A stretch of 64,000 bases of DNA from Spirochaetota bacterium (lineage in GTDB: Bacteria > Spirochaetota > UBA4802 > UBA5550): positions 44,880 to 108,879 of the forward strand of contig JAGNKX010000018.1 in NCBI GenBank assembly GCA_017999915.1, read 5' to 3'. The translations under genes were made by a program, and so were the position numbers. The notes below the pieces were generated by a model. That model worked only from the letters and a program-made list of their open reading frames with translations. It did not search any database and was not told where the DNA came from. Positions 2,905 through 30,479 of the stretch are shown here, one piece after another. How positions within the stretch are numbered: position 1 is the stretch's first letter; every line of letters begins with the position of its first letter.

Positions 2905-4635
2905 ATGTTAACATCTGATGAACTGGAAGAGCTGCGGCAGATCGTCGGTCCCCAATGGGTGAGGGATGATCCCGCCACCAGGGACGCGTACGCCATCTAT
3001 TATAACTCGTCGTCCCTGAACAGGGAGGACAAGCTCTGGACCAGCCGCCCCGCGGCGGTCATCATGCCCCGGACGGCGCAGGAGATATCGGCGCTGACGA
3101 AGTTCTGCAACAGGAAGGATTTCATGCTCAAGCCCTTTTCCACGGGCTGGATCACCTCCTCGGCGCCAGGGAGCCGCAAGACCATCATCCTCGACCTGAA
3201 GCGCATGGACAGCATAATCGACATAGATGTGAAGAACCAGATCGCCATCGTGGAGCCCTACGTGAGGGCTATAGACCTGCAGACGGAGCTCTGGAAGGTG
3301 GGACTCAACGTCCATGCCGTTTCGTGCGGCGGCAATCATTCCATCCTTGCGTCTGCGGCCGCCGCCTGGGGATACGGCATCACCGGGGCGTCCATGGGAT
3401 TCCAGGCGCGGAACATGCTCGGCGTCGAATGGGTCATGCCCTCCGGGGAGGTCGTCACCCTGGGGAGCGCCGGGGACGGCGCCGAATGGTTCAGCATAGA
3501 CGGGCCGGGCCCGGGGGTGAGGGGCCTCATCCGCGGGTTCCAGGGCACCTTCGGCGGCCTCGGCACCTTCACCAAGGCCGCCATCAAGCTCTACCGCTGG
3601 AACTCGGACGCCGAGTACGAAGTGCACGGCGGGTCTCCCAAGTACGTGCTCAACCGCGACCTGCCCAACATCGGCATCTTCCTCTGCACGTTTTCATCGA
3701 AGCAGCAGATAACGGACGCGGGGTACAAGCTGGGCGAGGCCGAGTGCAACTACGCTGATTTCAGGATGCCCGCCTTTTTCGTGGCCCTGGGGTTCACCGA
3801 CAATAATCTTGAATTGAAGAAGCTCTGGTCCACGGGGATATTCCAGAACCTGGCCCGGTACATGATCACGGTGTGCGTTCACGGTCATTCCAAAAAGGAA
3901 TTCGAATGGAAGGTGAAGGCCCTCAAGGAAATAATAAAAGAGACCGGTGGCATCACGTTCCCCATGGTGCAGATCCCCATCCCGGTCTTCTCCCTGATGA
4001 AGCCCCTGTTCAAGATGATGAAGGACCCGGTGAAGGTCATGAGGCGCATACCCTTCATGCAGAAGATAATGGATTCTATCGTGCTCAGCGAGGAGCAGCG
4101 CCTGAAGCTCCTCACCACGGCCTTCTTTATCCTGCTGCGCCACGCCAACAACACCCAGGGCGGTTTCAGGGCGTCGTCGGGCATGTTCACGTCCGTGGGC
4201 GCCTTCGATACCTGGGACATGGGCTTTGAGCAGGCCGAGTATATCGCCGGGGTCAAAAAGTCTGCCATCGAAAAGGGGCTGATCGTGGACGACGGCGGCG
4301 ATCTCGGCTGCGGCGGTACCTTCGATTCCGGTCACCTCGGCTACATTGAGGGCATCGGGGAATACTCCACCAACAATCCCGATTCGAGGAAGGCCACCAA
4401 GGAGATCGTGGCCGAGTCGCTCCGGGGGACCATCGAGAAAGCACTGGGGGTGCCCATCGCCGCCTTCGGCGGGCCCATGAACAGGATGTTCGGCCCCCAT
4501 TGCTACAATTATCATGAAATGATCATGAAGATCAAGGAAAAGCTCGATCCTAATTCATCATACGACTCGTGGACCTACAGCGGTCCGTCGGAAAAGGCTT
4601 TTCCTGATGAAAAAGAGGATTATACGTTTTTTTAA
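2905..4635 (+). CDS. Second FAD-binding oxidoreductase (PCMH-type)
   Basis: A 576-aa FAD-linked oxidase distinct from its neighbour. A PCMH domain (residues about 40-235) contains RPAAVIMPRTAQEISALTKF, VEPYVRAIDLQTELWK and the glycine-rich stretch around GFQGTFGGLGTFTKA. The C-terminal half carries GYIEGIGEYS and ends with FGPHCYNYHEM and a LDPNSSYDSW motif that stands in for the usual DPxxxxNPG. No signal peptide is seen. It follows the first oxidase by 63 bases on the same strand and probably belongs to the same operon, so two flavoproteins may share one Fe-S subunit or act successively. The fold is clear; the reaction is not. Confidence 0.84.
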   Translation: MLTSDELEELRQIVGPQWVRDDPATRDAYAIYYNSSSLNREDKLWTSRPAAVIMPRTAQEISALTKFCNRKDFMLKPFSTGWITSSAPGSRKTIILDLKRMDSIIDIDVKNQIAIVEPYVRAIDLQTELWKVGLNVHAVSCGGNHSILASAAAAWGYGITGASMGFQARNMLGVEWVMPSGEVVTLGSAGDGAEWFSIDGPGPGVRGLIRGFQGTFGGLGTFTKAAIKLYRWNSDAEYEVHGGSPKYVLNRDLPNIGIFLCTFSSKQQITDAGYKLGEAECNYADFRMPAFFVALGFTDNNLELKKLWSTGIFQNLARYMITVCVHGHSKKEFEWKVKALKEIIKETGGITFPMVQIPIPVFSLMKPLFKMMKDPVKVMRRIPFMQKIMDSIVLSEEQRLKLLTTAFFILLRHANNTQGGFRASSGMFTSVGAFDTWDMGFEQAEYIAGVKKSAIEKGLIVDDGGDLGCGGTFDSGHLGYIEGIGEYSTNNPDSRKATKEIVAESLRGTIEKALGVPIAAFGGPMNRMFGPHCYNYHEMIMKIKEKLDPNSSYDSWTYSGPSEKAFPDEKEDYTFF

Positions 4636-4717
4636 GTGAATTATGTAGGCAACCTCCGCCTTCTGATTACATTTGTAAATCAATATTTGCATATGACTTA
4701 TAACGCAGGTGAATGCT

Positions 4718-5794
4718 ATGAGCGAATATGTGAGTCCGAAAGTGAAAGAGGGTTGGACCGGCCCCGGCAGGAGCGATGGCGATATACGCCCCCTGGAACC
4801 GGCGGATGACGCCCTCCATATAGAAATCGGCAAGAGGGGCCTGTACGAGTGGTGGTACTTTGACGCCCACCTTGACGGAGGACACACCATCGTGGCGTTC
4901 TTCTACGCGGCAAATCCCAACCCGGGCATGTCAGGCAAAAGCGGAGTGGAAATCGTACTCCTCAGGCCGGACGGTAAGAAAACCCAGGTCTTCATACCAT
5001 ACGGTGCCCGTGATTTTGCCGCATCGAGGGAAAAGCCGGAAGTAACGATCGGCGCCAACTACATGAAGGTCCGCAAAGGCAAAAACGGGCTGCCGGAATA
5101 TGAGATATTCATCAAGGAGAAGGACCTCGGCTGCCATCTCATTTATAATGCAGAGGTCAACGGTTGGAAGCCGGGGAGCGGCTACTCCCATTTCGGGGAC
5201 ATGGGCTACTTCGCCTGGGTCATTCCTTTCGCGAGGGCGTCGGTGAAAGGGACCGTGACCGACGTCGATTCAGTCATGAAGGTGAGAGGGATCGGTTACC
5301 ATGACCACAACTGGCTCAACTTCCAGTTCGCGCGTATAATCAACTACTGGATGTGGGGACGTATCTATTCGAAGCGCTACACCGTTTCCTACGCCTACAT
5401 CCAGTGCAACAAAAAAATGGATAATCACACGGTTAAGGTCCTGATGGTGGCTGACGGAAAGAACGTCATCGCCAGCACCGGCGATTTTCATTTCCAACAG
5501 GACGAGCATGTTTATAACCAGAAGGCAGGGCACCGCTATCCAAAGAACGTTACCATAGCAATGACGGGTAAGCTCAAGGTAACGCTTTCCGTTGAAAAGG
5601 TGCTGGAGGCGGTGGACATGCTTGAACAATTCAACCCGCTCCTCAGGATTCTGGCGAAGATGATCGGCGGGATCAAGCCCGGGTATTTCAGGCTTCTTTC
5701 CAGTTTCACCGTCGCCGTGACCGGTAAGGGAAAGACCATACAGGAGAAGGGAACAACGCTGCACGAGATCGTGCTGTTGAAGCCGTCAGAATAA
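4718..5794 (+). CDS. AttH/CrtC-like lipocalin-fold protein
   Basis: A 358-aa protein resembling the hydroxyneurosporene synthase/AttH family: an N-terminal LYEWWYFDAHLDGGHTIVAFF block and a central GIGYHDHNWLNFQ block, both hallmarks of these double-lipocalin beta-barrels. Characterised CrtC members hydrate carotenoids, and many relatives are lipid-binding proteins of unknown function. No signal peptide is visible. The ATG at 4718 is chosen because CAGGTG sits about 6 bases upstream; the alternative GTG at 4709 lies inside that ribosome-binding site. It follows the two FAD oxidases by 82 bases, which suggests the cluster handles an isoprenoid or other hydrophobic substrate (inference). Confidence 0.8.
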   Translation: MSEYVSPKVKEGWTGPGRSDGDIRPLEPADDALHIEIGKRGLYEWWYFDAHLDGGHTIVAFFYAANPNPGMSGKSGVEIVLLRPDGKKTQVFIPYGARDFAASREKPEVTIGANYMKVRKGKNGLPEYEIFIKEKDLGCHLIYNAEVNGWKPGSGYSHFGDMGYFAWVIPFARASVKGTVTDVDSVMKVRGIGYHDHNWLNFQFARIINYWMWGRIYSKRYTVSYAYIQCNKKMDNHTVKVLMVADGKNVIASTGDFHFQQDEHVYNQKAGHRYPKNVTIAMTGKLKVTLSVEKVLEAVDMLEQFNPLLRILAKMIGGIKPGYFRLLSSFTVAVTGKGKTIQEKGTTLHEIVLLKPSE

Positions 5795-5904
5795 GCATAT
5801 CAGCGTACATGAAAGATAGAGGCAGGTGCCGGTAGGAAGAATATGAAAATTGTCTGTTAAAGCGGGATTTGATTATTTCTTTATCTATTATAGGGGGGTC
5901 TTTC

Positions 5905-7215
5905 ATGAAGAAGATACATGTTCTGTCCATGGTTTGCGCTTTTGTCGTGGCCGCTTCCGCCGCTCTCTTCGCCGGGAGCGCCGAGGAGAACACCAACCAG
6001 AGCGCCGAGTACATGAAAACGCTTAACCGCGGCGCGTCGACCGATGCCGACGCATCATTTTATAATCCCGCCGGCACGGCCCTCATGGAGGAGGGGGCAT
6101 ACATCTATCTCAGCGCCCAGTATATTTTACTGCCTATCGAAATCCGCGGACACAGCCTTTCGCGTAGCGTCTACCGCGGGGAAAAAACCTCCTACTGCAT
6201 GCCGAACATCCATGTTGTCTACAACAAGCACAACGCCGGCGGCGGATCAGGCGATCTTGCCTGGTCCTTCAGCGGGATGGCCCTCGGCGGCGGCGGGTTT
6301 GGGAAGTATAACCAGGGCCTATCCTATATCGACAATACCCTTTTTCTTCTAAAAGATGTATTTAATTCATTCTTCACATCCGCCGGCATTCCCTATTCCA
6401 TAGGGCCACTTATCACCTCGAAGTTCGAGGGCTCCTCGGTCTATTATTCGGCCATGACCAACCTTGCCTACACGGTCCTTGATGACAGGCTGGCTTTTTC
6501 CCTGGGATACCGCTTCATCCTCGGATCGGGAACCTACGACGCGAAGCTTTACAGCAACGGATTCCTCATTCCGCTGGGGGGGGATTTCCATGCGACCCAG
6601 AGCGGCCTGGCCCACGGCGTCATAGTCGGCCTGAGCGCAAAGCCGGTCGATGACCTCACCATCGGTTTCAAGTACGAATATAATTCACCGCTCAAGATGA
6701 AGACAAACGCTAGCGGTTACTACATAGTCGGCCTTGTCGATTCCAGCCTGATGGATGGCGGGGAGGCCCACCGCCAGATTCCGATGAACCTGAACCTGGG
6801 CCTTGCCTACCGGGTCAAGGGGTTACAGTTCTCCTGGACCTATTCACATTACCTGTGCCATATTGCCCAGTGGAAGGGTAAAGAGAAAAGTTACTATGAC
6901 GGATACGAGGTCGGGATGGGCCTTGATTACACCTTCTCCACGGCGCCGCTGAATATCGGCTGCGGCTATGTATTCACCAATGGCGGCGCCAGGCCGTCGG
7001 GCCAGAGCCAGATAGCTGAATTGCCCAACGGCCATACCTTTGGAGTAGGCCTTTCATACACATACGCTAAGATCGTTAAACTAACAGTAGCCCTCGGATA
7101 CATATATTTCGAAACTGTTGATATCAACAAGGGGACCATGCTGAAGTTCTTGCCTGCCCGTTTTTATAAAAAGGGTTATGATGCGGCAATCGGCGCTGAG
7201 TTCAAGGTCATTTAG
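5905..7215 (+). CDS. FadL/OmpP1-type outer-membrane transport protein
   Basis: A 436-aa exported beta-barrel. The signal peptide covers about residues 1-22 (MKKIHVLSMVCAFVVAASA, cleavage near LFAGS). The mature N-terminus has the FadL-family signature, with YMKTLNRGASTDADASFYNPAGTA at residues about 35-58, followed by alternating beta-strands and a C-terminal strand ending GAEFKVI. FadL-family proteins carry long-chain fatty acids or other hydrophobic compounds across the outer membrane. AGGGGGGT lies 6-13 bases before the ATG. It sits downstream of an AttH-like protein, and the acyl-CoA synthetase at 19036 could act on imported acids. The family is confident; the ligand is inferred. Confidence 0.88.
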   Translation: MKKIHVLSMVCAFVVAASAALFAGSAEENTNQSAEYMKTLNRGASTDADASFYNPAGTALMEEGAYIYLSAQYILLPIEIRGHSLSRSVYRGEKTSYCMPNIHVVYNKHNAGGGSGDLAWSFSGMALGGGGFGKYNQGLSYIDNTLFLLKDVFNSFFTSAGIPYSIGPLITSKFEGSSVYYSAMTNLAYTVLDDRLAFSLGYRFILGSGTYDAKLYSNGFLIPLGGDFHATQSGLAHGVIVGLSAKPVDDLTIGFKYEYNSPLKMKTNASGYYIVGLVDSSLMDGGEAHRQIPMNLNLGLAYRVKGLQFSWTYSHYLCHIAQWKGKEKSYYDGYEVGMGLDYTFSTAPLNIGCGYVFTNGGARPSGQSQIAELPNGHTFGVGLSYTYAKIVKLTVALGYIYFETVDINKGTMLKFLPARFYKKGYDAAIGAEFKVI

Positions 7216-7655: not shown

Positions 7656-10600
7656 ATGATGGCCCATTGTAATCGCCGTGCTGTTGTGTATTCCTGGCCT
7701 GCCCGCATTGGTCTTACGATTGCATTGTTGATAATGGGCGCCTGCGCTCCTTCCCGCGGCTCTGACCCCGCACATCCCCGCGCCATCCGTGGGATAATCG
7801 ACCTTCGTGGGTATGATTTTACCGGGAACGGCGCCGCCATACTCTCCGGCGAATGGGAATTTCACTGGAAGAAACTGCACACTGAAGTATCTCCCGATAC
7901 CGGGCCGTCTTTCATAAAGGTTCCTGACCGATGGAGAGACAGCATTGTCAACGGCATGGCGCTTTCCGGCCATGGCTACGGAACGTATCGCCTGAAAATT
8001 AAACTGCCGGCGTCAGTCTCAAATCTCGCGATTCGGTTTCCCGATGTTGAAACGGCCTACAGTCTCTATGCCAATGGACGAAGGATCGGCGGTGTCGGGA
8101 CAGTGACCACGGACGGACGGTCCGATGACTGGCGCTTTGAACCGCGCGTCTATTCCCTTCCTGAAGCCGGGGATACGCTGGATCTGGTCGTTGAGGTTTC
8201 CAACTATGTGTACAAGGGAGGAGGCCTGACGAGGGATATCCAGCTGGGACCCGAGCCGGCCCTTCACAAAGCCTGGGAACGCGAGGCCTTTCTTGAATAT
8301 TTTATGCTCGGCGGCATGATTCTTATCGGTTTGTACCATCTCGGTTTTTTCATGATACGGCGCCGCGACTATTCAGCCCTTTATTTCAGCCTGTTCTGCA
8401 TTATTCTCGGCGTGCGGGGGATGCTCGTCGGGGAAAGGCTGCTCAGTACGGCCTATCCTGCCGTACCTTTTGAGTATTTTTTAAAAATGGATGTTCTCAC
8501 TATCTTTCTGCCCGTGCCGCTGTTCCTCCTGTACCTGTTCGAGATATTCCCCGCTGAAAGTCCCCGGAAGCTGAGAGCTCTATTCATCTTACCGGGATTC
8601 CTGTTTTCCCTGTTCGCGCTGGTCACTCCGGCCCGGATCTTCCACCATGCCATAGACTGGTATAACGGCGTATTTGCGATCTCAGTCCTTTTAACGGTAT
8701 TGATCACCGCCAGGGCCGTGAAACAGGGCAGGGACGGCTCGGTGGTTTTCATCCTCGGCATCGCAATCCCCATCGCCGCCCTGGTAAACGATATTCTCCG
8801 CACACTGTATATCATACAGTCGCCGAACATCGTCTCCTTCGGATTCCTTGCCTTTACCATGTGCCAGGCATACATAATCGCCCTTCGTTTTTCACGTTCC
8901 CGCGATCAAATGGAAATAATGTCCCATCAGCTGGAGGCTTTCAGCAAAAGCCTTGAGATCAGGGTCGATGAGCGGACGGAAGAGCTTGCCGAGGAAAAGA
9001 CACGGCTTGCCCTTCGAAACGAGGAGATCGAGCGGAGTGAAAAGAGGTTCCGCGACCTGGTGGACCTGCTCCCCGTCGGCGTCTATGAATCCGACGGCTC
9101 GTACAAAATAACCTACGCGAATCGCGCCGCCGCCGAAATATTCGGATATGATCTGGATGAATTGAAGAGCGGCAACATCACGACCTTTGACATGCTATCT
9201 CCAGATTCTCGGGATGATGCAGTAGAAATAAGGAAGAGCATCAAGCCGGCATCACCGATCTTGCGACTTGAGCACATGGCCAGGCGCAAGGACGGCTCGA
9301 TTTTTCCGATGGTTGTCAGCGCATGCCTGATCGATCCGGCCGAACCGGCGAAGGGCACACGAGGCGTCATCATCGATGTCAGCTCTACAAAGCGCGCGGA
9401 GATGATAATGCGCGCCAGGGTCGACCTGATGGAATATGCAGTTGAACATAACCTTGATGAACTGCTGCAGAAAACGCTGGATATCGTGGAAACGCTGACC
9501 GACAGCCTTGTGAGTTTCTATCATTTCGTGGAGCCGGACCAGAAGACTCTCTCTCTCCAGGCATGGTCCACCAGAACGGTCAGGGAGTTCTGCCGGGCCG
9601 AGGGGAAGGGCCTCCATTATGGCATTGACCAGGCCGGCGTTTGGGTAGACTGCGTCCACGAGCGGCGGCCGGTGATCCATAACGATTACGCCGCTCTTGC
9701 CAACCGGAAGGGGCTGCCGGAGGGCCATGCGCCTGTGGTGCGTGAGCTGGTCGTACCCATCCTCAGGGGAAACATCATCGTGGCCATACTGGGCGTGGGC
9801 AACAAGGCCGTTGATTACACGAAAGAGGACGTGGAGGTCACGGAATACCTTGCAGATATCGCCTGGGAGATCGTCGAGCGGAAGCGCGCTGACGACAGGC
9901 TCAGGGAGAGCGAGGAAAAGTACCGCCTTATCACGGAAAATATGGACGACACCATATGGCTCATGGATATGAATCTCCAGACAACCTTCATAAGCCCGTC
10001 AGTAAGCCGCAAGCGAGGCTTTACTCTTGAAGAGCTACAGTCGTTAACCATAGATAAGCACCTGACGCCGGCATCCCTGGAAGCCGCGCTGGCTGTGATT
10101 GCCAGGGAAATGACGCCGGAGATGCTGGGGGATCCCAATTATACTATCACGGTCGCCATGGAGCTCGAATTCTACTGTAAGGACGGAAGCACGTTCTGGA
10201 GCGACAACACCATGTCCGTGATTCGTGATGAGGCGGGAAAGCCCATCGGCATCATGGGGGTCGGACGCGATATCACGGAGCGCAAGAAGGCCGAGGAAGC
10301 CCTGGCCGTATCCCAGAAGAATTTTGCCACGTTCTTCAATACCATCGAGGACCTCCTATTCATACTCGATATGGAAGGGAAGATCCTCCACGTGAACGAT
10401 ACCGTCATTAAACGGCTCGGCTATTCTCCCGAGGAGCTCCAGGGCCAGAGTGTTCTCCTGGTGCACCCGCCTGACCGCCATGAAGAGGCCATGACCATCA
10501 TAACAGCGATGCTGAACGGAAAGGCCGACCTGTGTCCCGTTCCGGTCATGACAAAAACGGGGATGCAGATACCTGTTGAAACCCGGGTGGTGGTGGGCGA

Positions 10601-13600
10601 ATGGAACGGCAGACCGGCCCTCTTCGGCGTCACCAAGGATATATCAAAGCTCAAGCTTTCCGAGGAGAAGTTTTCCCACGCCTTCCACACCAATTCGACT
10701 CTTATGGGTATTTCGCGTATCTCTGACGGAATATACCTGGATGTCAACGAGTCTTTCCTCAAAAACTTTGGATTTACCAGGGAGGAGGTGATCGGCAGGA
10801 CCTCCCAGGAGCTTGGCATCTTCGCGGATTATGAAGACCGGGAGCGGGTACGCCGGGAGTTCGAAACAAACGGTAACATCCGAAACGTGGAGATGAGGAT
10901 CCGCCGCAAGGATGGCACGCTTCGCATCGGCCTGTTATCGGCCGATCCGATCATGGTTGGCGCGGACAGGTGCTGGCTCACAACCATGGCGGATATCACT
11001 GAGCGGAAAGAGGCCGAGGAGGCGTTGAAGGAAAGCGAATCGTACAACAAGGTGCTCTTTTCCGATTCGCGTATAGCCCTGATTGTTCTGGACCCTGAAA
11101 CCGGACGGTTCCTTGACTGCAATGACGCGGCGGTTCGCATCTATCGAATGAATAGTAAGGATGAAGTGATCGGGAAAGTCCCTCTTGACATGTCTACAAC
11201 AACCCAGTATGATGGAAGCGATTCGAGACTTGCCGCTCAATGGAATGTCAAGCGGGCCCTGTCTCAAGGTTCGCACCTGTTCGAATGGCGTCACCAACGT
11301 CCCGACGGCGAGGTATGGGACGGCGAGGTGCACCTCATGACGTTCCGCCACAAGGGTAAAACGATGCTGCAGTTCAGCGTTCAGGACATAACGGCGCGGA
11401 AAGTAGCGGAGCGTGAGCTGGTCAAATCGAAAGAGGAAGCCGAGGCCGCAAACCGCGCCAAGTCGGAGTTCCTGGCGAACATGAGCCACGAGATCAGGAC
11501 CCCGATGAACGCCATAATTGGATTCACACACCTGATGGGGCGGACCGACCTCGCGCCGGTTCAGCGCGATTACTGCTCCAAAATTCAGGGCGCGGCGCGC
11601 ATGCTCATGGGCATCATCAACGATATCCTTGATTTTTCAAAAATTGAGGCAGGGAAGCTGGCGATCGAGTCCATTGATTTTGACCTGAATGACATCCTGG
11701 TGACCATCGCCAATACCCTCTCCTATGCAGCGGAGGAGAAGGGACTGGAATTGCTCTTTTACATCGCACCGGACGTGCCGTTCAGCCTGAAGGGAGATCC
11801 CCTCAGGATGCAGCAGGTGCTTTTTAATCTTATTCATAACGCGATCAAGTTCACCCAGAAGGGAACGGTAACCCTGAAAATTGAAATGCAGAACAGGATT
11901 TTCGACCCTGATATTGCAAAGTTAAAATTCCGGATCATTGATACCGGGATCGGTCTTACGGAGGATCAGCAGGCGACCATATTCAAGTCCTTTACCCAGG
12001 CCGACACCTCCATTACGCGCCGCTATGGCGGGACCGGACTCGGTCTTGCCATCTGCAAGCGCCTGGTTGAGCTTATGGGCGGGGATATCGGCTTGATAAG
12101 CAGGGCGGGCGAAGGCAGCGAATTTTACTTTAACCTGTCACTGCATGTCAGCCGCATGACGGTGCCTGACAAGGAGCCATTCACGGGTGAAAAGCCGGAA
12201 GTGGTGGTGGCGGATGATAATCTCGGCTCCCTGGAGATACTCAGGGGATATCTTAGCACAATGGGCTTCCCGGTAATAACGATGCAATCCGGAGAGGAGA
12301 CGATAAGGTATCTCAAGGAAAGGGGATCGGCGACCCCCCTTGTCCTTATCATTGACTGGAGGATGCCGGTAATGGACGGCATTGAGACCATACAGCGGAT
12401 TCGGCATGATCCCGCCATTGGCGGCATATCCTCAATTATAATGATATCCGCCTATAATCTTGATGAAGTGAAGGAACAGACGACGCTGCTGGGGGTTGAC
12501 GCGCTGCTAGCAAAGCCGGTGAGCCCTTCCACATTGCTTGACGCGCTTTCCCAAGTCATGAATTTTAGATCGAAGCCGCGAATCTCCGCCGTGCGGTCTT
12601 CCGCCGCGTTCCCTCTGCCCTCGTTCCAGGGGAGGCGCATTCTCCTGGTGGAGGACAACGCCATAAACCGCGAAGTGGCTATCAGAATGCTGGAAGATAC
12701 CGGCATGTCCGTCGACATAGCGGAGAACGGTGTCGAGGCCATCCAGAAGGTCGCATCGGAGATATACGATCTCGTCTTTATGGATGTGCAGATGCCTGAA
12801 ATGGACGGGTTTGAGGCGACACGGACCATACGTTCTGACGCTAAATATAACGATCTGCCAATTATCGCCATGACCGCTTACGCCATGAGCGGAGACCGCG
12901 AGCGGTGCATTGAAGCGGGCATGAATGACCATATGTCAAAGCCCTTTGACCCGGACCAATTCTACGCCATATGCAGGAAATGGATGCCCGAACGGACCCA
13001 CATCGACGGCACGGTTCCGGCAACACAAACGGAAAGGAGCCCTGATGACCTGAGTTTAATCATGGGGTTGCCGGGCATCGATGTCCATTACGCGATATTG
13101 CATTTTTCCGGGAGAACTGATATTCTTCCTGATATCATAAGGGAATTCTGCGATATGTACGCCGATGTCAGGGAGCGCCTTGATTCCTTCATGGCATCGA
13201 AGGACACTGACGGCCTCAGGAAGTTCGCCCACAGCATGCGCGGGGCGGCCGGCACCGTCGCGGCGATCAGGGCGATGGATACGGCGGCGGCCCTGGAGGA
13301 ATGCATCATCGATGGCAGGATCGAAGAGATCGGCGGGCATGTCGGGCGGTTCATATCGGCCATGGAGGAAGTGCTTCAGAGCGGGCCGATCCTTAAATCG
13401 CGGATGGAAGCCTATTTTAAAGAAGAGGAACAGATGCCCGGGGATGACCGGCGGGACCTGGATGCGGACATTGCAATACTTGCATCCCTTCTCGAACAGC
13501 GCAGCTTCGGGGCCGTGGACCAGATCCGGAAAATCAAGAAGCGGTTTCCAGGCGCCCGGAGCGATACGATCAGGGAGATAGAAACAATGGTCAACAGGTT

Positions 13601-13673
13601 TGATTACCGCGGGGCCCTTGAAAAACTGAGAGACGCCGGCGGGGCCATACCCGGCGGAAGTGACATGAAATGA
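7656..13673 (+). CDS. 7TMR-DISM multi-PAS/GAF hybrid histidine kinase with two REC and an HPT domain
   Basis: A 2005-aa inner-membrane sensor kinase. Order: signal or lipoprotein leader (residues 1-31, lipobox-like IMGAC); 7TMR-DISM extracellular domain (about 45-205, with [12 protein letters not shown]); seven membrane helices (about 210-415); coiled coil; PAS (about 467-580); GAF (about 585-745); four further PAS domains (about 755-1255); HisKA with phospho-accepting His1278; HATPase (about 1380-1500); REC1 with Asp1567; REC2 with Asp1710; HPT with His1859 in HSMRGAAG. This layout supports a multi-step His-Asp-His-Asp phosphorelay. The stop overlaps the start of a REC-GGDEF gene by ATGA, so that regulator is the likely final receiver. 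The ligand is probably periplasmic, possibly a carbohydrate, since the DISM domain has a jelly-roll fold. Confidence 0.9.
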
Positions 13674-21069: not shown

Positions 21070-21717
21070 CTAATCCGTGAATTTTTTCTTCACATTGTCA
21101 TACTTGTTCGCCCGGCTGTTCCAGATGGTCTGGAGCATGTCCGGGTTGCCGCTCAACGTCTCCCTGGTGACTATCCATACCCAAATCGCCTGCAAACGGA
21201 GATGGCCCGTCGGGCCCGCGACCTGGCCGTTCATGAAGGGGCCCATGTCTCCCGCGTCCTCCCAGTGGCCGCCGTATATGACCGCGTATTTGTCTTTCAT
21301 AGACCCGGTCAGATTGATGCTGAACCGGTACATTTTCTTGCCGTCTTTCACATTGCCGGCCCAGCAGCCCTTGCGGGTATTTTCCTTGTCCTGCTGGGAC
21401 GTGCATCTGGTCATGACCTCGTTCTTTCCCTTGCCCTCGCTCACGGCACTGTATTCGAAGCCGAGCTGATCTTCGGAAAAGACGGCTGTGCCGATTTTAA
21501 AGGCCTCGACGCGCTTGGATTTCTTTTTATTGAGATGTCCGGCGCGCTGTCCCTGGAAAAAGACCGTCGTGTCCTGATCCTGCACAGAGACGACAACAGT
21601 GGGCTGCACCGGATTGGGTATGGACTCGGAGAATGAATCACGATAATACAAAACGGTCATGCCGATGAAAACGAAAAGAAAAAGCCGGATGATGATATTC
21701 TTTTTTGCTGCCTGCAT
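21070..21717 (-). CDS. Exported hypothetical protein
   Basis: 215 aa. An N-terminal hydrophobic segment (IIIRLFLFVFIGMTVLYY, residues about 7-24) acts as a signal or membrane anchor. The rest is a mixed, probably beta-rich domain with two cysteines (TRCTSQQ and KGCWAG) that could form a disulfide in the periplasm. I recognise no family. The ATG at 21717 is chosen because GAGG lies 5 bases upstream; a longer frame to 21783 lacks a ribosome-binding site. It is last in a probable three-gene minus-strand group with 21811-22125 and 22138-23364, and ends at the bidirectional terminator. Confidence 0.65.
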   Translation of the reverse strand: MQAAKKNIIIRLFLFVFIGMTVLYYRDSFSESIPNPVQPTVVVSVQDQDTTVFFQGQRAGHLNKKKSKRVEAFKIGTAVFSEDQLGFEYSAVSEGKGKNEVMTRCTSQQDKENTRKGCWAGNVKDGKKMYRFSINLTGSMKDKYAVIYGGHWEDAGDMGPFMNGQVAGPTGHLRLQAIWVWIVTRETLSGNPDMLQTIWNSRANKYDNVKKKFTD

Positions 21718-21810
21718 AGGAGCCTCTTTTATCAATGTTTTTGAGTTTGACCATTTAATAATCAGAATCAAGCCGTATGTCAAGACAGATTTAACCTGCC
21801 ATCGGTATTA

Positions 21811-25476: not shown

Positions 25477-26181
25477 TCAATAGCAGCCGTTGGGAGCCAG
25501 GTCGATGTTCCAGGGCGCGTTCATATCCTTGCCCTGTTCGTTCATAACCCCGCGGAACACACTCCCCGAATTCTCTTTGGCCTTGCAGGGGGCTCCTTCG
25601 TTATCCGTTCCGGTTATATCGGCCTCGAATTCATACCACCACCGGCCCGATGAGGAGTGCTCCCTGTATTTGAGATAGCGGATGGTTACGGTATTTATTT
25701 CCTTTATGGTCGATACCTGCTTCTTGTACTGGTTCTTTATCATTTCCCTGACGTCATCATTGGAGGGAGGCTCTTTGCCCTTGCCGGCTTCCGTCGACGA
25801 TTCCCCTACGGAAAAATGATCATAGACGAAGCCGGCGGGAGTCTGCCGGTAGTGCCATCCCATGGCAAAGACGGTCTTTTTTGAACCCTGCATCACGGTC
25901 ACCTTCAGGGGCTGTAGGCAGAAACGCGCCTTGACCATGACTTCATACTCCACGCCGCCCGCTGACCGGGCTTTTTTGCCTGTGGCAACGGCCTTTTCGT
26001 ACATTGACGATGGACCGGCCTTTTCTGCCTTGAGCACCTTCTCGCCGGGGTACCTGGCGGCCCATTCCTTTTTTACGCTTGCCTCAATGGCGCCGAAGGG
26101 GACGCAGTCCGCCAGGGCCCAGCCGGACAGGACCGCGATAAACATGATGGTCATTAATGTGCTGCGCAATGGGATAGACAT
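25477..26181 (-). CDS. Exported hypothetical protein
   Basis: 234 aa. The signal peptide (MSIPLRSTLMTIMFIAVLSGWALA) is cleaved before DCVPFGA. The mature protein alternates charged helices and strands and has cysteines at DC, RFCLQ, APCKA and PNGCY, suggesting periplasmic disulfides. I do not recognise the family. The ATG at 26181 has GGAGG eight bases upstream; an ATG 5 codons further out does not. It is the last gene of a minus-strand run with the vitellogenin-like HEAT protein and the large lipoprotein, and may serve the same process. Confidence 0.68.
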   Translation of the reverse strand: MSIPLRSTLMTIMFIAVLSGWALADCVPFGAIEASVKKEWAARYPGEKVLKAEKAGPSSMYEKAVATGKKARSAGGVEYEVMVKARFCLQPLKVTVMQGSKKTVFAMGWHYRQTPAGFVYDHFSVGESSTEAGKGKEPPSNDDVREMIKNQYKKQVSTIKEINTVTIRYLKYREHSSSGRWWYEFEADITGTDNEGAPCKAKENSGSVFRGVMNEQGKDMNAPWNIDLAPNGCY

Positions 26182-26219
26182 GTATCGAACCTCCATATTA
26201 GAATTTTTTGGAACGGGAC

Positions 26220-28067
26220 TTACCTGAAACGCTTTGAATAAAGGGCCTTGTAAATCATGACCCTGTTTCCGGGGTCCGTTTCATAGGAAAGCATGTTTTT
26301 GAGATCTTTTTTAGTCTTCGGATAGTCGTCCTTGACTCTGCCCATGAATTGTATGATAGTCCCGCGGACCTTGACGTCGCTTTCGTCATCGGCCCTGGAA
26401 GTTACGGCGTTAACGATATCATCGCTGGGCTTCTGCCTGGCCAGGGCCTTGATCGCCGCGTTCCGCACCATCGCCTCATCGTCCTTGAGTGCGTGATCGA
26501 TGATCTCTTCCACCGCGTCCTCGCCCTTCAGCATCCCGAGGGACCTTGCCGCGGATTCCCGTACGTAGGGATCGTCGGATTTCAGGTAAGGAGCGACATG
26601 GCGGCTCAGGGACGGGTCTTCAGTGTTGCCTATGGAGTCGATCACCGTGGACAGCATTTGCGGGTCCTCCCTGTGCCGATCCATCAGGTCTATCAGGTTC
26701 TTCGACAGCTTGTTTATCGTATCGTCATCGGGACTGTGCGTATCGAGCTGCTTGCCGTACATCCTGCCGAGGGCAAGGACCGCTGAAGTAGCCACGTCCT
26801 TGAAATCGCTGTCAGTGGCGCTCAATTTTATGTAATCGTTGATCCTCTTGATGGTCGCATCGGTCGGCGTTGAGAGATCGCCAAGGCAGACGCTGGCCCG
26901 GATGCGGTCTATGGAATGCATCCCCTCGTCATCGATGATTCTGATCAGGGAATTCTGCGATTCCGGCGACCCGTTTACGCCGAGGGCGTAGGTAAGGGCC
27001 GCAAGGGTTTCCTCGTTCCCCTCCTGCTTCCGTATGATGCTTTCGATCTCGATGGCCCCCTTGGGGTTCAGCGACAGGTATTCCTTTGTATTCTTGACAA
27101 GGCCGTACAGGTCGGTCCGGCCGCTGGTGTATTCTCCCAGGAGGGTTTTCATCGTGTGTCCCTGATACTCGGCCTTCAGGTATTCCTGCTTTTGTTTCTC
27201 CCAGGCGGACACGGTGTTTTTGGGGCCGTCTTTGAATGTCATAAGCAGTTTTTTAAAGGTGACGTCGTCTTCCCATATGGGAAGGCCCATGTCCGGCTTG
27301 AAGGGGATCTTTACCAGGGAGATGATGCTGTCGGTGTGAAGGGAGTCCTTTTGCCTGCCGATGGAGAGGAGTTCCTCTCCCTGGTATTTCTCAAGCCAGC
27401 TCTCCTTTTTCGAAGGAACAATGGTATACCTGGACCGGATAATGCGCATGTGGGGCACCATGGCGTTATAATCCTTGTCCATGGCCATGCGGAGCATCGT
27501 GTACCTGTATTTCTTTTTAATGATGCTGTGGCCTTTTTTTTCGTAGCTTGCGAGATAGACGCCGTTGGCATCTTCCTCCTCTGTTTCAACCTCATTCATT
27601 CCGGAGATGGGGATCACAAACGAAAGGGACCTTATGAGATTGGAGAGTGATGTTTCGTCTTCTTTGGAGAGGGAATGGTCGAAATGGTATTCGCGATGGG
27701 TGCCTTCAGAGTCGAAATCAACGATGAAAAAGCTCGAAAACCGCTCCTCCAGGATGGGGCGCCTTTCGCCGTTCTCGCTTACCGTTATGGGGGAGAGCAT
27801 CATTCCCACCTTAACGAGGTCGTTTTTTTCATCAATCTCGATGATCCTGAAGTTTAGCGTCCCGGAAACGGCGATTTTTGAATGGCTGGTAAATCCGGTC
27901 AATGGATCGACGAATTCGATAATGCTGATATTTTTCAGGCTGTACATGTACTTCCCGTCTTTCTTCCAATTGAGATCGATCGGGTCTTCCATGAAGAAAT
28001 AAGATATCAGTGCGATCGCGCCTATTCCCAAGAGTATGGCGCATGTTATGATAATTTTCTTTTTCAT
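26220..28067 (-). CDS. Membrane-anchored HEAT protein resembling the vitellogenin/MTP lipid-transfer N-terminus
   Basis: 615 aa. One N-terminal membrane segment (residues about 3-25) is followed by a beta-rich region (about 30-290) with YMYSLKNISIIEF, KIAVSGTLNFRIIEI, FFIVDFDSEGTHREY and NGVYLASYEKKGHSIIKKK. A helical repeat region (about 290-615) includes ATSAVLALGRMYGKQL, STVIDSIGNTEDPSL and DPYVRESAARSLGML. This order, a barrel then alpha-helical HEAT-like repeats with an LGN-like block, is that of the large lipid transfer protein domain (Vitellogenin_N/LPD_N) of MTP and lipovitellin. The resemblance is by eye and needs a profile search; otherwise it is a HEAT-repeat protein of unknown role. 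ATG 28067 has GGAG five bases upstream. Confidence 0.7.
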   Translation of the reverse strand: MKKKIIITCAILLGIGAIALISYFFMEDPIDLNWKKDGKYMYSLKNISIIEFVDPLTGFTSHSKIAVSGTLNFRIIEIDEKNDLVKVGMMLSPITVSENGERRPILEERFSSFFIVDFDSEGTHREYHFDHSLSKEDETSLSNLIRSLSFVIPISGMNEVETEEEDANGVYLASYEKKGHSIIKKKYRYTMLRMAMDKDYNAMVPHMRIIRSRYTIVPSKKESWLEKYQGEELLSIGRQKDSLHTDSIISLVKIPFKPDMGLPIWEDDVTFKKLLMTFKDGPKNTVSAWEKQKQEYLKAEYQGHTMKTLLGEYTSGRTDLYGLVKNTKEYLSLNPKGAIEIESIIRKQEGNEETLAALTYALGVNGSPESQNSLIRIIDDEGMHSIDRIRASVCLGDLSTPTDATIKRINDYIKLSATDSDFKDVATSAVLALGRMYGKQLDTHSPDDDTINKLSKNLIDLMDRHREDPQMLSTVIDSIGNTEDPSLSRHVAPYLKSDDPYVRESAARSLGMLKGEDAVEEIIDHALKDDEAMVRNAAIKALARQKPSDDIVNAVTSRADDESDVKVRGTIIQFMGRVKDDYPKTKKDLKNMLSYETDPGNRVMIYKALYSKRFR

Positions 28068-28136
28068 ATCCACTCCGTGTTGTTATAGTGGGGATCGCAA
28101 GCCCGGGCAATGAGGTTGGTGCGGACCATCATATCA

Positions 28137-30479
28137 TCACTCCAGTGGGATTTGCAATAAATGTGCTTTATCGAGAAAAACGGGGTTCCAGAGCGGCTCC
28201 TCGCCTATCGGGAATTTGTAAACCGGCAGTTCCTTTTTCTTTTGTTCAAGGCCGCAGGGAATTATTTTATGGCAGAACTTAATGAATTTATAATACAGAA
28301 CGAGTTTTATATCGCCTTTCGGGCCCCAGAGCAGCATGTCGCAATGAATGGCGAAGTTGAAGCGCATTTTTACTTTTTTATCCGTATTATTCGGATCGTT
28401 TCTCGATTGTACGTCAAAATCACACCACGCCAGATTCCTGTTTTCAAGCTTTAGCAGCTCCAGCGTGACCGCGATGCCCCCTCCGAGGAACGTGCCGCCC
28501 ACCAGGCCTTCCACCTTGCAGCCGATTTTGGCAAATGGTATGATGCCAATGGAAATGTTATTCTTGATTCTCGCAAAGCCGCCGATCCCGAAACTGAAGA
28601 ATCCGGCGAGTCGAATTGAAATTGGCGCGACAAGGACAAAAAAAGTCGCCGTATAAGATATTTCCGAATAGAAAGCGAGATTTTTGGGATTCTTATCCTT
28701 TTTTTTCGAGTCCAATGGCGGTGATGAAAAGGGACTGGTCACATTGGCGCGCAACTTCTCCTTTGAACTTTCAAAGTAAGCCTGGCCCCTGCTGAAGTCC
28801 GGGTTCTTGGTCTTATATGTGCCGGCATCCTTAAAAATCGTGTCGACATCTTTCATGTCTTCTGTTTTCCACTCAAAATTCAATCCGGGGAGTTGATATT
28901 TAAAAACTTCTTTATCATTAAGAATGCATAGCCGTACGGAGAAACCGCAAATTTTATCTTTATTATATTTCATTTCACCGCTCCCGTCGTTCTGAACCTT
29001 GCTGTGCACGGCGCCGTCGTTTCCTTTCTTATGAAACTCATCTTCCATGGAATGCAGGCCGAGCAGGTCGGAGAGGGCGGCATGAATGTAAGCTTCGGCT
29101 GATACGATTTTAAACCCCTTGGTGAAAAGAACGAGCGGTATGTTGGCGTTGGCTTCCAGGTTGATCATGTCCCGTGAATGATCGCTTTTATCCCAGATGT
29201 TGTATCCACAGGTATCGAAATGAAATCCGATGCCGAACCATTCTTTTCCATTGCAATTATACGCGGCATGGGGATCCTTTGCCAGCGGCCCCCACCAGTC
29301 ATGGCGTGTTTTGTCTTCCGCGGGAGCCGCGTTGAGAGTTTGTGAAAAACCATTCAGGATGGTTTGGAGGGGGGAAAGGAGCCTGCTCGAAACTTTTTCC
29401 TTGGCCTCCCGCGGGTTGTCCAGTACGATCCGGACCTCATGGGTTTTAATATTGTTGCTGTTCATCATGGGGGCTTCGCTCGATCCTTCGATCTCCGCTG
29501 AAATGGTGAAGGCGGACGTCTTCTTTCCGAGACCCGCCATGTAGTTTGCGACTTTCGTCCTGAGGTCGGACGGGAAATCGAGCACAAAGCCTTGATCGAC
29601 CGGAACATACGCTTCCAGGGCGGCAAAATCAAGGCTGTACAGCGTCTGGTCGGACTGGCTCGCCACCGCAAGCGGTTCCGCGATCGTGCCGTCCGGGGAT
29701 TTCAGGAAAAACTTGATTTTCACGTTGCGGGCGGCGGCGCCGTTTGCCATGGCCTTGACGGTGCCGTGAATGGCATCCGTGTCGTTGGGCGAGTTATCAT
29801 CCAGCTTGTCGGTAAAAATAATAATGACATCGTCCTGGATTATGAGCTCGGGCATATAGAGATCGCAGGAATTCGCGTATTCGCTGGTGATGATCACATC
29901 GGTGGTAATTTTTTTTTCCAGCAGTATATCGGTATTTGTTTTTTCTCCGGCCGTTTCCTTCATTTCGACGGAAGTTTCCTGACCAAGGTCGAAATTCTTC
30001 ACATAGTCGTGAAAAACGGAAAGAAGGGTGTAGCTTCCATAATGGCCGTCCACCTGGGGGATGACTATTTCAACATCATAGGTGTTAGCGCCGGGTTTGA
30101 CCCTGTCAATTGCCGGCGAGCCTATGTATATCTGCCGGACTTCCCCGTTTTCCGATTTCAAATCGTTGTTGTTCAACAGGTAGAAGCTCACCGGAACGTC
30201 CCTCGCGGTTCGGGGTTCGGAGGATTCAATGGAGACTTTCAATTTGCACGTATGGCCGATAAGGACCTTGGGCTCGGTCACTTCAACTTTCATCAGCCTG
30301 AGATTCTCGATGTCATAGTCATAGCCCTCGTCAATCTCATGGGCCGCGATTAGCGATTCTTCAAGCAGGTTCTTTTTCCTGTCTGTGTCTTTCTTGCAGC
30401 CGGGAAGAAGCAGAAGAGATAGAATGCAAGCAAATATCAGGACGGTGACTGGGTAAGCCAAGGAGATCATTTTTTTCAT
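28137..30479 (-). CDS. Large lipoprotein with a CARDB-like N-terminal domain
   Basis: 780 aa. The lipoprotein signal peptide ends LLLLPGC (Cys about 28). Residues about 45-165 look like a CARDB/Ig-type beta-sandwich (MKVEVTEPKVLIGHTCKLKVSI, then VKPGANTYDVEIVIPQ). A second beta domain spans about 185-350. The C-terminal third has a glycine-rich stretch (FFSFGIGGFARIKNN, VGGTFLGGGIAVTLELL) and several cysteines. Outer-membrane or periplasmic location is expected. I do not recognise the full architecture. AGGTGAG lies before the ATG. It is the first gene of the minus-strand run with the vitellogenin-like protein 69 bases downstream, so they may form one lipid-handling system (inference). Confidence 0.72.
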   Translation of the reverse strand: MKKMISLAYPVTVLIFACILSLLLLPGCKKDTDRKKNLLEESLIAAHEIDEGYDYDIENLRLMKVEVTEPKVLIGHTCKLKVSIESSEPRTARDVPVSFYLLNNNDLKSENGEVRQIYIGSPAIDRVKPGANTYDVEIVIPQVDGHYGSYTLLSVFHDYVKNFDLGQETSVEMKETAGEKTNTDILLEKKITTDVIITSEYANSCDLYMPELIIQDDVIIIFTDKLDDNSPNDTDAIHGTVKAMANGAAARNVKIKFFLKSPDGTIAEPLAVASQSDQTLYSLDFAALEAYVPVDQGFVLDFPSDLRTKVANYMAGLGKKTSAFTISAEIEGSSEAPMMNSNNIKTHEVRIVLDNPREAKEKVSSRLLSPLQTILNGFSQTLNAAPAEDKTRHDWWGPLAKDPHAAYNCNGKEWFGIGFHFDTCGYNIWDKSDHSRDMINLEANANIPLVLFTKGFKIVSAEAYIHAALSDLLGLHSMEDEFHKKGNDGAVHSKVQNDGSGEMKYNKDKICGFSVRLCILNDKEVFKYQLPGLNFEWKTEDMKDVDTIFKDAGTYKTKNPDFSRGQAYFESSKEKLRANVTSPFSSPPLDSKKKDKNPKNLAFYSEISYTATFFVLVAPISIRLAGFFSFGIGGFARIKNNISIGIIPFAKIGCKVEGLVGGTFLGGGIAVTLELLKLENRNLAWCDFDVQSRNDPNNTDKKVKMRFNFAIHCDMLLWGPKGDIKLVLYYKFIKFCHKIIPCGLEQKKKELPVYKFPIGEEPLWNPVFLDKAHLLQIPLE

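Follow-up and report, generated by a model that had tools for sequence, protein, structure and literature searches.

A predicted membrane-anchored Spirochaetota protein with likely homology to the N-terminal module of animal large lipid transfer proteins

The locus, its neighbours and its family

The window analysed here is a 64,000-nt stretch of contig JAGNKX010000018.1 from a Spirochaetota bacterium (GTDB UBA4802; UBA5550; assembly GCA_017999915.1). On its reverse strand, positions 26220..28067 encode a 615-aa protein read from an ATG, present in one copy in the genome and resembling the large lipid transfer proteins (LLTPs), the animal proteins responsible for assembling lipoproteins and egg yolk. 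Read from the first GTG, the ORF covers 26220-28073 on the same strand and gives 617 aa, with the ATG two codons later; the relative P0001 starts at this ATG (28067). Residue numbers below are counted from the GTG (617-aa frame).

The sequence opens with a single predicted membrane anchor at residues ~7-27 (27993..28055, reverse strand). The best 19-residue Kyte-Doolittle mean, 2.48, starts at residue 7, while beyond residue 40 the best value is 1.0, in agreement with the one anchor proposed by the first-pass annotation; the structure model places a helix at residues 4-26. KKK precedes the anchor, and the N-terminus is predicted to lie inside and the remainder outside the inner membrane. Next comes a beta-rich domain, residues ~34-290 (27204..27974, reverse strand), delimited by a low-confidence model, profile alignment and Foldseek. 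It contains the block EEDANGVYLASY ... IIKKK at residues 165-191 (27501..27581, reverse strand), within which NGVYLASYEKKGHSI and IIKKK fall at about residues 170-188. Helices run from about residue 290 to the C-terminal end, the helical domain (residues ~300-612; 26238..27176, reverse strand) being modelled as an alpha superhelix with block means mostly of 76-96. The succession of beta-rich region and helical repeats had been noted from the sequence, and all the stretches quoted for it, including SAVLALGRMYGKQL, STVIDSIGNTEDPSL and YVRESAARSLGML, were located in the ORF translation. Cysteines occur at positions 11 and 396 only. The chain terminates directly behind the helices, at residue 617, and lacks the C-terminal A and C sheets of the LLTP lipid cavity.

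Directly upstream, 63 bp from the 617-aa ORF, lies LP2 (28137..30479, reverse strand), a 780-aa predicted lipoprotein with a predicted LLLLPGC lipobox and no convincing Pfam match. It is the big lipoprotein of the first-pass annotation, and its linkage is conserved: the LP2 family adjoins upstream in eight of the nine clade-1 loci defined below (the window, L069-L074 and L076) and is absent at L075, as judged from an iterated HMM search of predicted ORFs; the count covers these nine loci and not the neighbourhoods of P0001, P0002 and the incomplete G220 gene. An LP2 profile matched seven of 392 phylum genomes. Every one of the seven has clade-1 members, next to which all eight LP2 genes lie; since the profile derives from these same loci, what is telling is that 385 genomes gave no match. 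No relative of LP2 was found among PDB sequences at E values up to 1. The idea that LP2 is the missing C-terminal part of an LLTP was rejected, as the profile comparison scored 15.3, within the range of 40 shuffles (<=18.8), and showed no likeness. In L073 (9104-12493) LP2 is 1129 aa long and carries kelch repeats.

Other neighbours are less constant. The downstream gene (25477..26196, reverse strand; 23 bp away) encodes 239 aa with a likely signal peptide and no Pfam family; the ORFs predicted at the 11 compared loci yielded no relative. Another predicted lipoprotein, LP1, lies further upstream in four of the nine clade-1 loci. It matches the NMT1_3 substrate-binding domain in L069 (13060-15222; 71.2 bits) and, under the cut-off, in L074 (13331-15439; 24.8 bits), which hints at small-molecule binding within the gene group. 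In three of nine loci (L069 7725-8939, L070 7792-9012 and L074 7809-9020) a 403-406-aa gene follows, with 53-57% identity to the first member, a C-terminal VSFY/VSYY and no convincing Pfam match; its sequence makes an outer-membrane beta-barrel likely.

Fatty-acid and lipid-type domain genes occur elsewhere in the window, not tied to the LLTP-like gene. Three consecutive genes at 2905-7215 encode a FAD_binding_4 protein, a protein with the C-terminal lipocalin-like domain of Svf1, a eukaryotic lipid-handling family (36.4 bits, cut-off 25), and an outer-membrane transporter of the FadL/TodX type; together they may form a second lipid path. At 7656-13673 lies a gene for a 2005-aa hybrid histidine kinase that combines 7TMR-DISM with several PAS, GAF, receiver and Hpt domains; a GGDEF response regulator comes next. 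Positions 21070-21783 encode a 237-aa protein with two stretches of ChW (clostridial hydrophobic W) repeats.

Scans of the phylum with PF01347 and family profiles, together with three protein-database searches, yielded a first clade (alignment A3) of 11 sequences: the window protein, P0001, P0002 and eight more, encoded in six further genomes. Identity to the window protein is 21-91% for the ten others, and lengths are 614-626 aa with a common layout, except in L075 (~609 aa, start set by eye). A partial twelfth sequence (L028/L053, genome G220) was excluded from A3. A more distant clade 2 (612-670 aa) comprises L077, L078, L079 and P0007-P0009, P0006 and the L078 protein having the same sequence; hhalign joins the two clades over their full length (E 5.9e-23, 521 columns). 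P0006 comes from genome G193, a member of the window's phylum, and the closely related P0007 bears the database name 'HEAT repeat domain-containing protein [Leptospirales bacterium]'. A gene resembling the C-terminal part of LP2 and secreted-looking adjoins in all three clade-2 loci, divergently in L077. Its comparison with the LP2 C-terminal part scored 55.2 in hhalign, against <=24.5 in 100 shuffles and 40.1 for an unrelated lipoprotein family, the latter over positions 11-35 only (the signal-peptide region). In L077 (7261-10732) the clade-2 gene is followed by a gene whose start resembles that of a LexA repressor.

The protein-database searches recovered P0001, P0002, the clade-2 proteins P0006-P0009 and the generic HEAT proteins P0003-P0005; each scored the 7,993 or 7,994 candidates that had most words in common with the query, so more relatives are possible. 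No relative was found in the genome-contig collection queried with the window protein and with P0002, nor among viral contigs queried with P0006, and the family-profile scans covered the window's phylum. P0001 and P0002 already carry a PF01347 tag in a database. We found no study of these two proteins, and a literature search on bacterial members of the LLTP module, judged from the search results, returned no report.

Vitellogenin_N and HEAT matches of the helical domain

The first-pass annotation likened the protein to the N-terminal module of vitellogenin, MTP and apoB, with a plain HEAT-repeat protein as the null. Under the latter, the product would be an anchored HEAT scaffold with an unrelated beta domain, holding envelope proteins, and its Vitellogenin_N match would be a HEAT cross-match, since HEAT repeats and the LLTP arch belong to one class of alpha superhelix. 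We consider this unlikely, for reasons that emerge from both halves of the protein.

The Vitellogenin_N profile (PF01347), whose search had been proposed as a check, matched the helical part in one stretch of 231 residues (343-573; 26355..27047, reverse strand; profile positions 341-585 of 590) with 38.8 bits against a curated cut-off of 24. HEAT_2 (PF13646) also exceeded its cut-off, with 72.4 bits and E = 3.9e-20, which favours the HEAT scaffold. Among the ten clade-1 proteins run through hmmscan (the eleventh, L075, was outside the scan), six were over the PF01347 cut-off: besides the window protein, P0001 (39.6 bits), P0002 (45.8), L069 (57.9), L071 (31.8) and L073 (26.7). L072 (16.4) and L076 (14.3) fell under it, and L070 and L074 were absent from the output. 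L070 reached 45 bits with PF01347 in the genome profile search and was counted as a miss; the discrepancy between the two scans is perhaps a filter effect. None of the six distinct clade-2 proteins passed the cut-off.

Against a simple cross-match, the window protein is the sole PF01347 match in its own genome, compared with 29 HEAT_2 matches in, by our count, 14 frames, one of them its own. In the named control genomes, PF01347 was found in 0 of 14 and HEAT_2 in 8 of 14. P0003 scores 396 bits with HEAT_2 and 13.3 with PF01347; the corresponding values for P0002 are 52 and 45.8. Across 296 phylum genomes, 23 had a PF01347 match at E<=1e-3 and 15 were over the cut-off. The top three matches are family members (59.1, 45.0 and 39.9 bits), and plain HEAT proteins come next, at 35.9 bits (L025) and lower. 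Because such HEAT proteins also pass the cut-off, a point in favour of the cross-match, the PF01347 score alone is no proof.

An HMM built from five animal LLTPs gave its best stretches in L069 (50.6 bits), the window protein (32.3), P0001 (28.2), P0002 (26.1) and L070 (21.7). In these best-scoring members the match is one long colinear stretch of 190-290 residues (348-586 in the window protein), which counts against a plain HEAT scaffold. The best other HEAT protein, L030, reached 19.5 bits over 102 residues, in a comparison set many of whose HEAT proteins had been collected through their PF01347 matches. Conversely, the remaining six of 11 clade-1 proteins (15.1 to 1.7 bits) and clade 2 (14.2 to 0.8) lie within the plain-HEAT range, as the rival account would have it. 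The helical part of the family profile aligned with the LLTP profile at a score of 92.95 over 255 columns, while 100 shuffles gave <=19.9. At the sequence level, the helical arch of the window protein thus appears to have an LLTP-specific order rather than a generic HEAT one. The family resembles bacterial HEAT_2 proteins in a helical part that scores 72 bits and is modelled as an alpha superhelix; it differs from them in its conserved N-terminal part and in that its best members exceed the compared HEAT proteins in one stretch.

The N-terminal domain in profiles and structure models

The N-terminal part has no convincing Pfam family. Aligned end to end by hhalign, the 11-sequence family and the five animal LLTPs scored 122.0 (E 2e-14, 559 columns), compared with 94.1 over 255 columns once the N-terminal part was removed. 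Shuffling its columns gave <=97.7 in 100 trials, reversing them 97.6, and replacing the N-terminus by three unrelated families 101.6-103.1. The true N-terminal half therefore stands ~24 score units above 100 shuffles of it, and the gain over no N-terminus stays at 17-27 when each single LLTP is left out in turn. That this half raises the score only in its true order counts against an unrelated beta domain.

Taken alone, the N-terminal part of both clades (12 sequences) scored 32.35 (E 8.6e-4, probability 23.6%, 195 columns), whereas 100 shuffles reached <=15.3 and three unrelated families 13.4-17.7. With the 11 clade-1 sequences the score was 27.6 (hhalign probability 7.4%; shuffles <=18.5). 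Without intermediate sequences, clades 1 and 2 gave N-terminal alignments that looked wrong, and clade 2 was therefore modelled alone; its N-termini by themselves gave no signal against four LLTPs (12.6). Single N-terminal sequences ranked 5, 6, 12, 33 (window) and lower among 155 and do not stand out, so the signal exists at the family level only. Family profiles searched against PDB sequences found no LLTP at E values up to 10, the top matches being designed alphaReps, as might be expected of a plain HEAT protein.

An N-terminal profile of both clades (A5; 371 positions, 12 sequences) had matches at E<=1e-5 in 9 of 392 phylum genomes and 9 of 167 genera, in a search where A5 was built from the very members that it recovers. 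This conservation argues against a HEAT scaffold with an unconserved N-terminus. Of the other members of the window's genus, the five listed gave no A5 match.

The resemblance first noticed by eye between the bacterial motif and an animal block recurs in the profile alignment, where EEDANGVYLASY pairs with EVDISGNCKVTY of MTP, within the animal E..G-x-C-x-x-x-Y block. The alignment also pairs the animal helix 'N-I-x-R-G ... Q', after the G-x-V strand, with the bacterial helix after the G strand. The four animal sequences of alignment A4 all have the barrel cysteines (G-x-C ... C). These are missing in clade 1, the first position being Y or F in ten of the 11 rows and I in one.

The AlphaFold model of the window protein, made from three sequences, shows a confident superhelix and an N-terminal barrel region mostly at pLDDT <50. 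At that low confidence, the modelled order is strands 42-51, 67-81, 86-100, 115-121 and 126-131, helix 137-149 and strands 164-190; lipovitellin has a single helix within its barrel, in the corresponding position of the series. A Foldseek search with this model (1,367 matches at E<=10) ranked MTP 1-3, lipovitellin 5, apoB 8 and bee vitellogenin 10 (8eoj, two chains of 6i7s, 1lsh, 9bd1 and 9enr; E 4.5e-9 to 9.5e-6; 654-741 columns). Four kinds of LLTP in the top ten, over the whole length, are not what a plain HEAT protein would lead one to expect. With most of the barrel at pLDDT <50, the chains superpose loosely (rmsd 15.7-21.3, TM by query 0.27-0.36), so that the ranking reflects local structure and sequence rather than a reliable fold. 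The clade-2 model is poor, its barrel again at pLDDT <50, and with it lipovitellin was the sole LLTP in the Foldseek top 50 (rank 16, E 2.7e-3, 271 columns). The best 50 VIA-align matches held no LLTP and consisted of HEAT/ARM and other alpha-solenoid chains, which favours the HEAT scaffold. For the barrel-plus-arch fold anticipated by the first-pass annotation, the four animal LLTP kinds among the top Foldseek matches thus speak in favour, whereas the barrel lacks a confident model. A barrel of strands round one helix is supported by profiles and Foldseek, modelled at low confidence by AlphaFold and not detected with single sequences. We infer that the beta-rich domain (residues ~34-290) is the equivalent of the LLTP barrel.

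A candidate envelope lipid-handling protein

The layout was judged to be above chance, since it is kept end to end in 11 sequences and accompanied by a PF01347 score over the cut-off. The Pfam match, the colinear N-terminal profile alignment and Foldseek together support the original reading over the HEAT null, and the window protein is likely a homologue of the LLTP N-terminal module and not a complete LLTP. We use the narrower term because the Pfam match and the arch agree with an LLTP, the barrel is modelled at low confidence, and the barrel cysteines and cavity sheets are absent.

Of the animal proteins, the large subunit of MTP (8eoj, 6i7s) shares with the bacterial one a beta-rich N-terminal part with one helix, the E-x-D-x-x-G-x-C/Y-x-x-x-Y block and the helical arch; it holds the first Foldseek ranks and is part of the five-LLTP profile that gave E 2e-14. 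Unlike MTP, the bacterial protein bears a predicted anchor, has none of the barrel cysteines and stops once the arch is complete (617 aa versus 894); identity in the Foldseek rows is 11-13%. With lipovitellin and vitellogenin (1lsh, 9enr; PF01347) it has in common, beyond the Pfam score and the Foldseek matches (ranks 5 and 10), two sequence blocks, G-N-x-x-x-P and, further on, E-x-N/D-x-x-V, but it has a predicted anchor and is without A/C sheets, phosvitin and von Willebrand parts. Lol, Mla and AsmA/TamB are the known lipid carriers of Gram-negative bacteria, and the job proposed for the bacterial protein, moving lipid or lipoprotein across the periplasm, is comparable; they are absent among its Pfam matches.

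The LLTP-module match combined with the usual LP2 linkage suggests lipid handling in the cell envelope, and the protein may itself carry lipid. We consider it fairly probable that this is an anchored protein with parts likely homologous to the LLTP N-terminal module, which handles lipid together with the predicted lipoprotein LP2. The anchor would sit in the inner membrane and leave the rest of the protein in the periplasm. The barrel might dock on the membrane or on LP2, the arch embracing LP2, and lipid would be handed to this predicted outer-membrane lipoprotein as MTP lipidates apoB. Where the putative outer-membrane barrel is present (3/9 loci), it and LP2 could carry the lipid on, forming a trans-envelope path. 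As the lipid-holding sheets are missing, either LP2 would supply them, of which its sequence gives no sign, or the module would only dock and chaperone.

The last option amounts to a true LLTP-module homologue that serves the folding, sorting or surface display of LP2 and carries no lipid. It would fit the nearly constant adjacency of LP2, the absent cavity sheets and the fact that LLTP N-terminal parts also make protein-protein contacts, as MTP does with PDI and apoB, but the fatty-acid and lipid-type genes in the window, though not tied to this gene, speak against it, and we regard it as quite improbable.

Lipid handling with LP2 being our preferred reading, a bolder form of it, which we hold to be rather unlikely, is a split bacterial LLTP, with barrel and arch anchored and the sheets coming from LP2; MTP-apoB lipid loading would then predate animals or have passed between bacteria and animals. 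The origin of large lipid transfer proteins is, to our knowledge, open. If the homology is true, bacteria would possess this N-terminal module together with a regular partner lipoprotein, in a minimal form open to purification, and ideas on how the MTP/apoB/vitellogenin line arose could be tested. The family would also be a candidate lipid carrier of a new kind in the spirochaete-type envelope.
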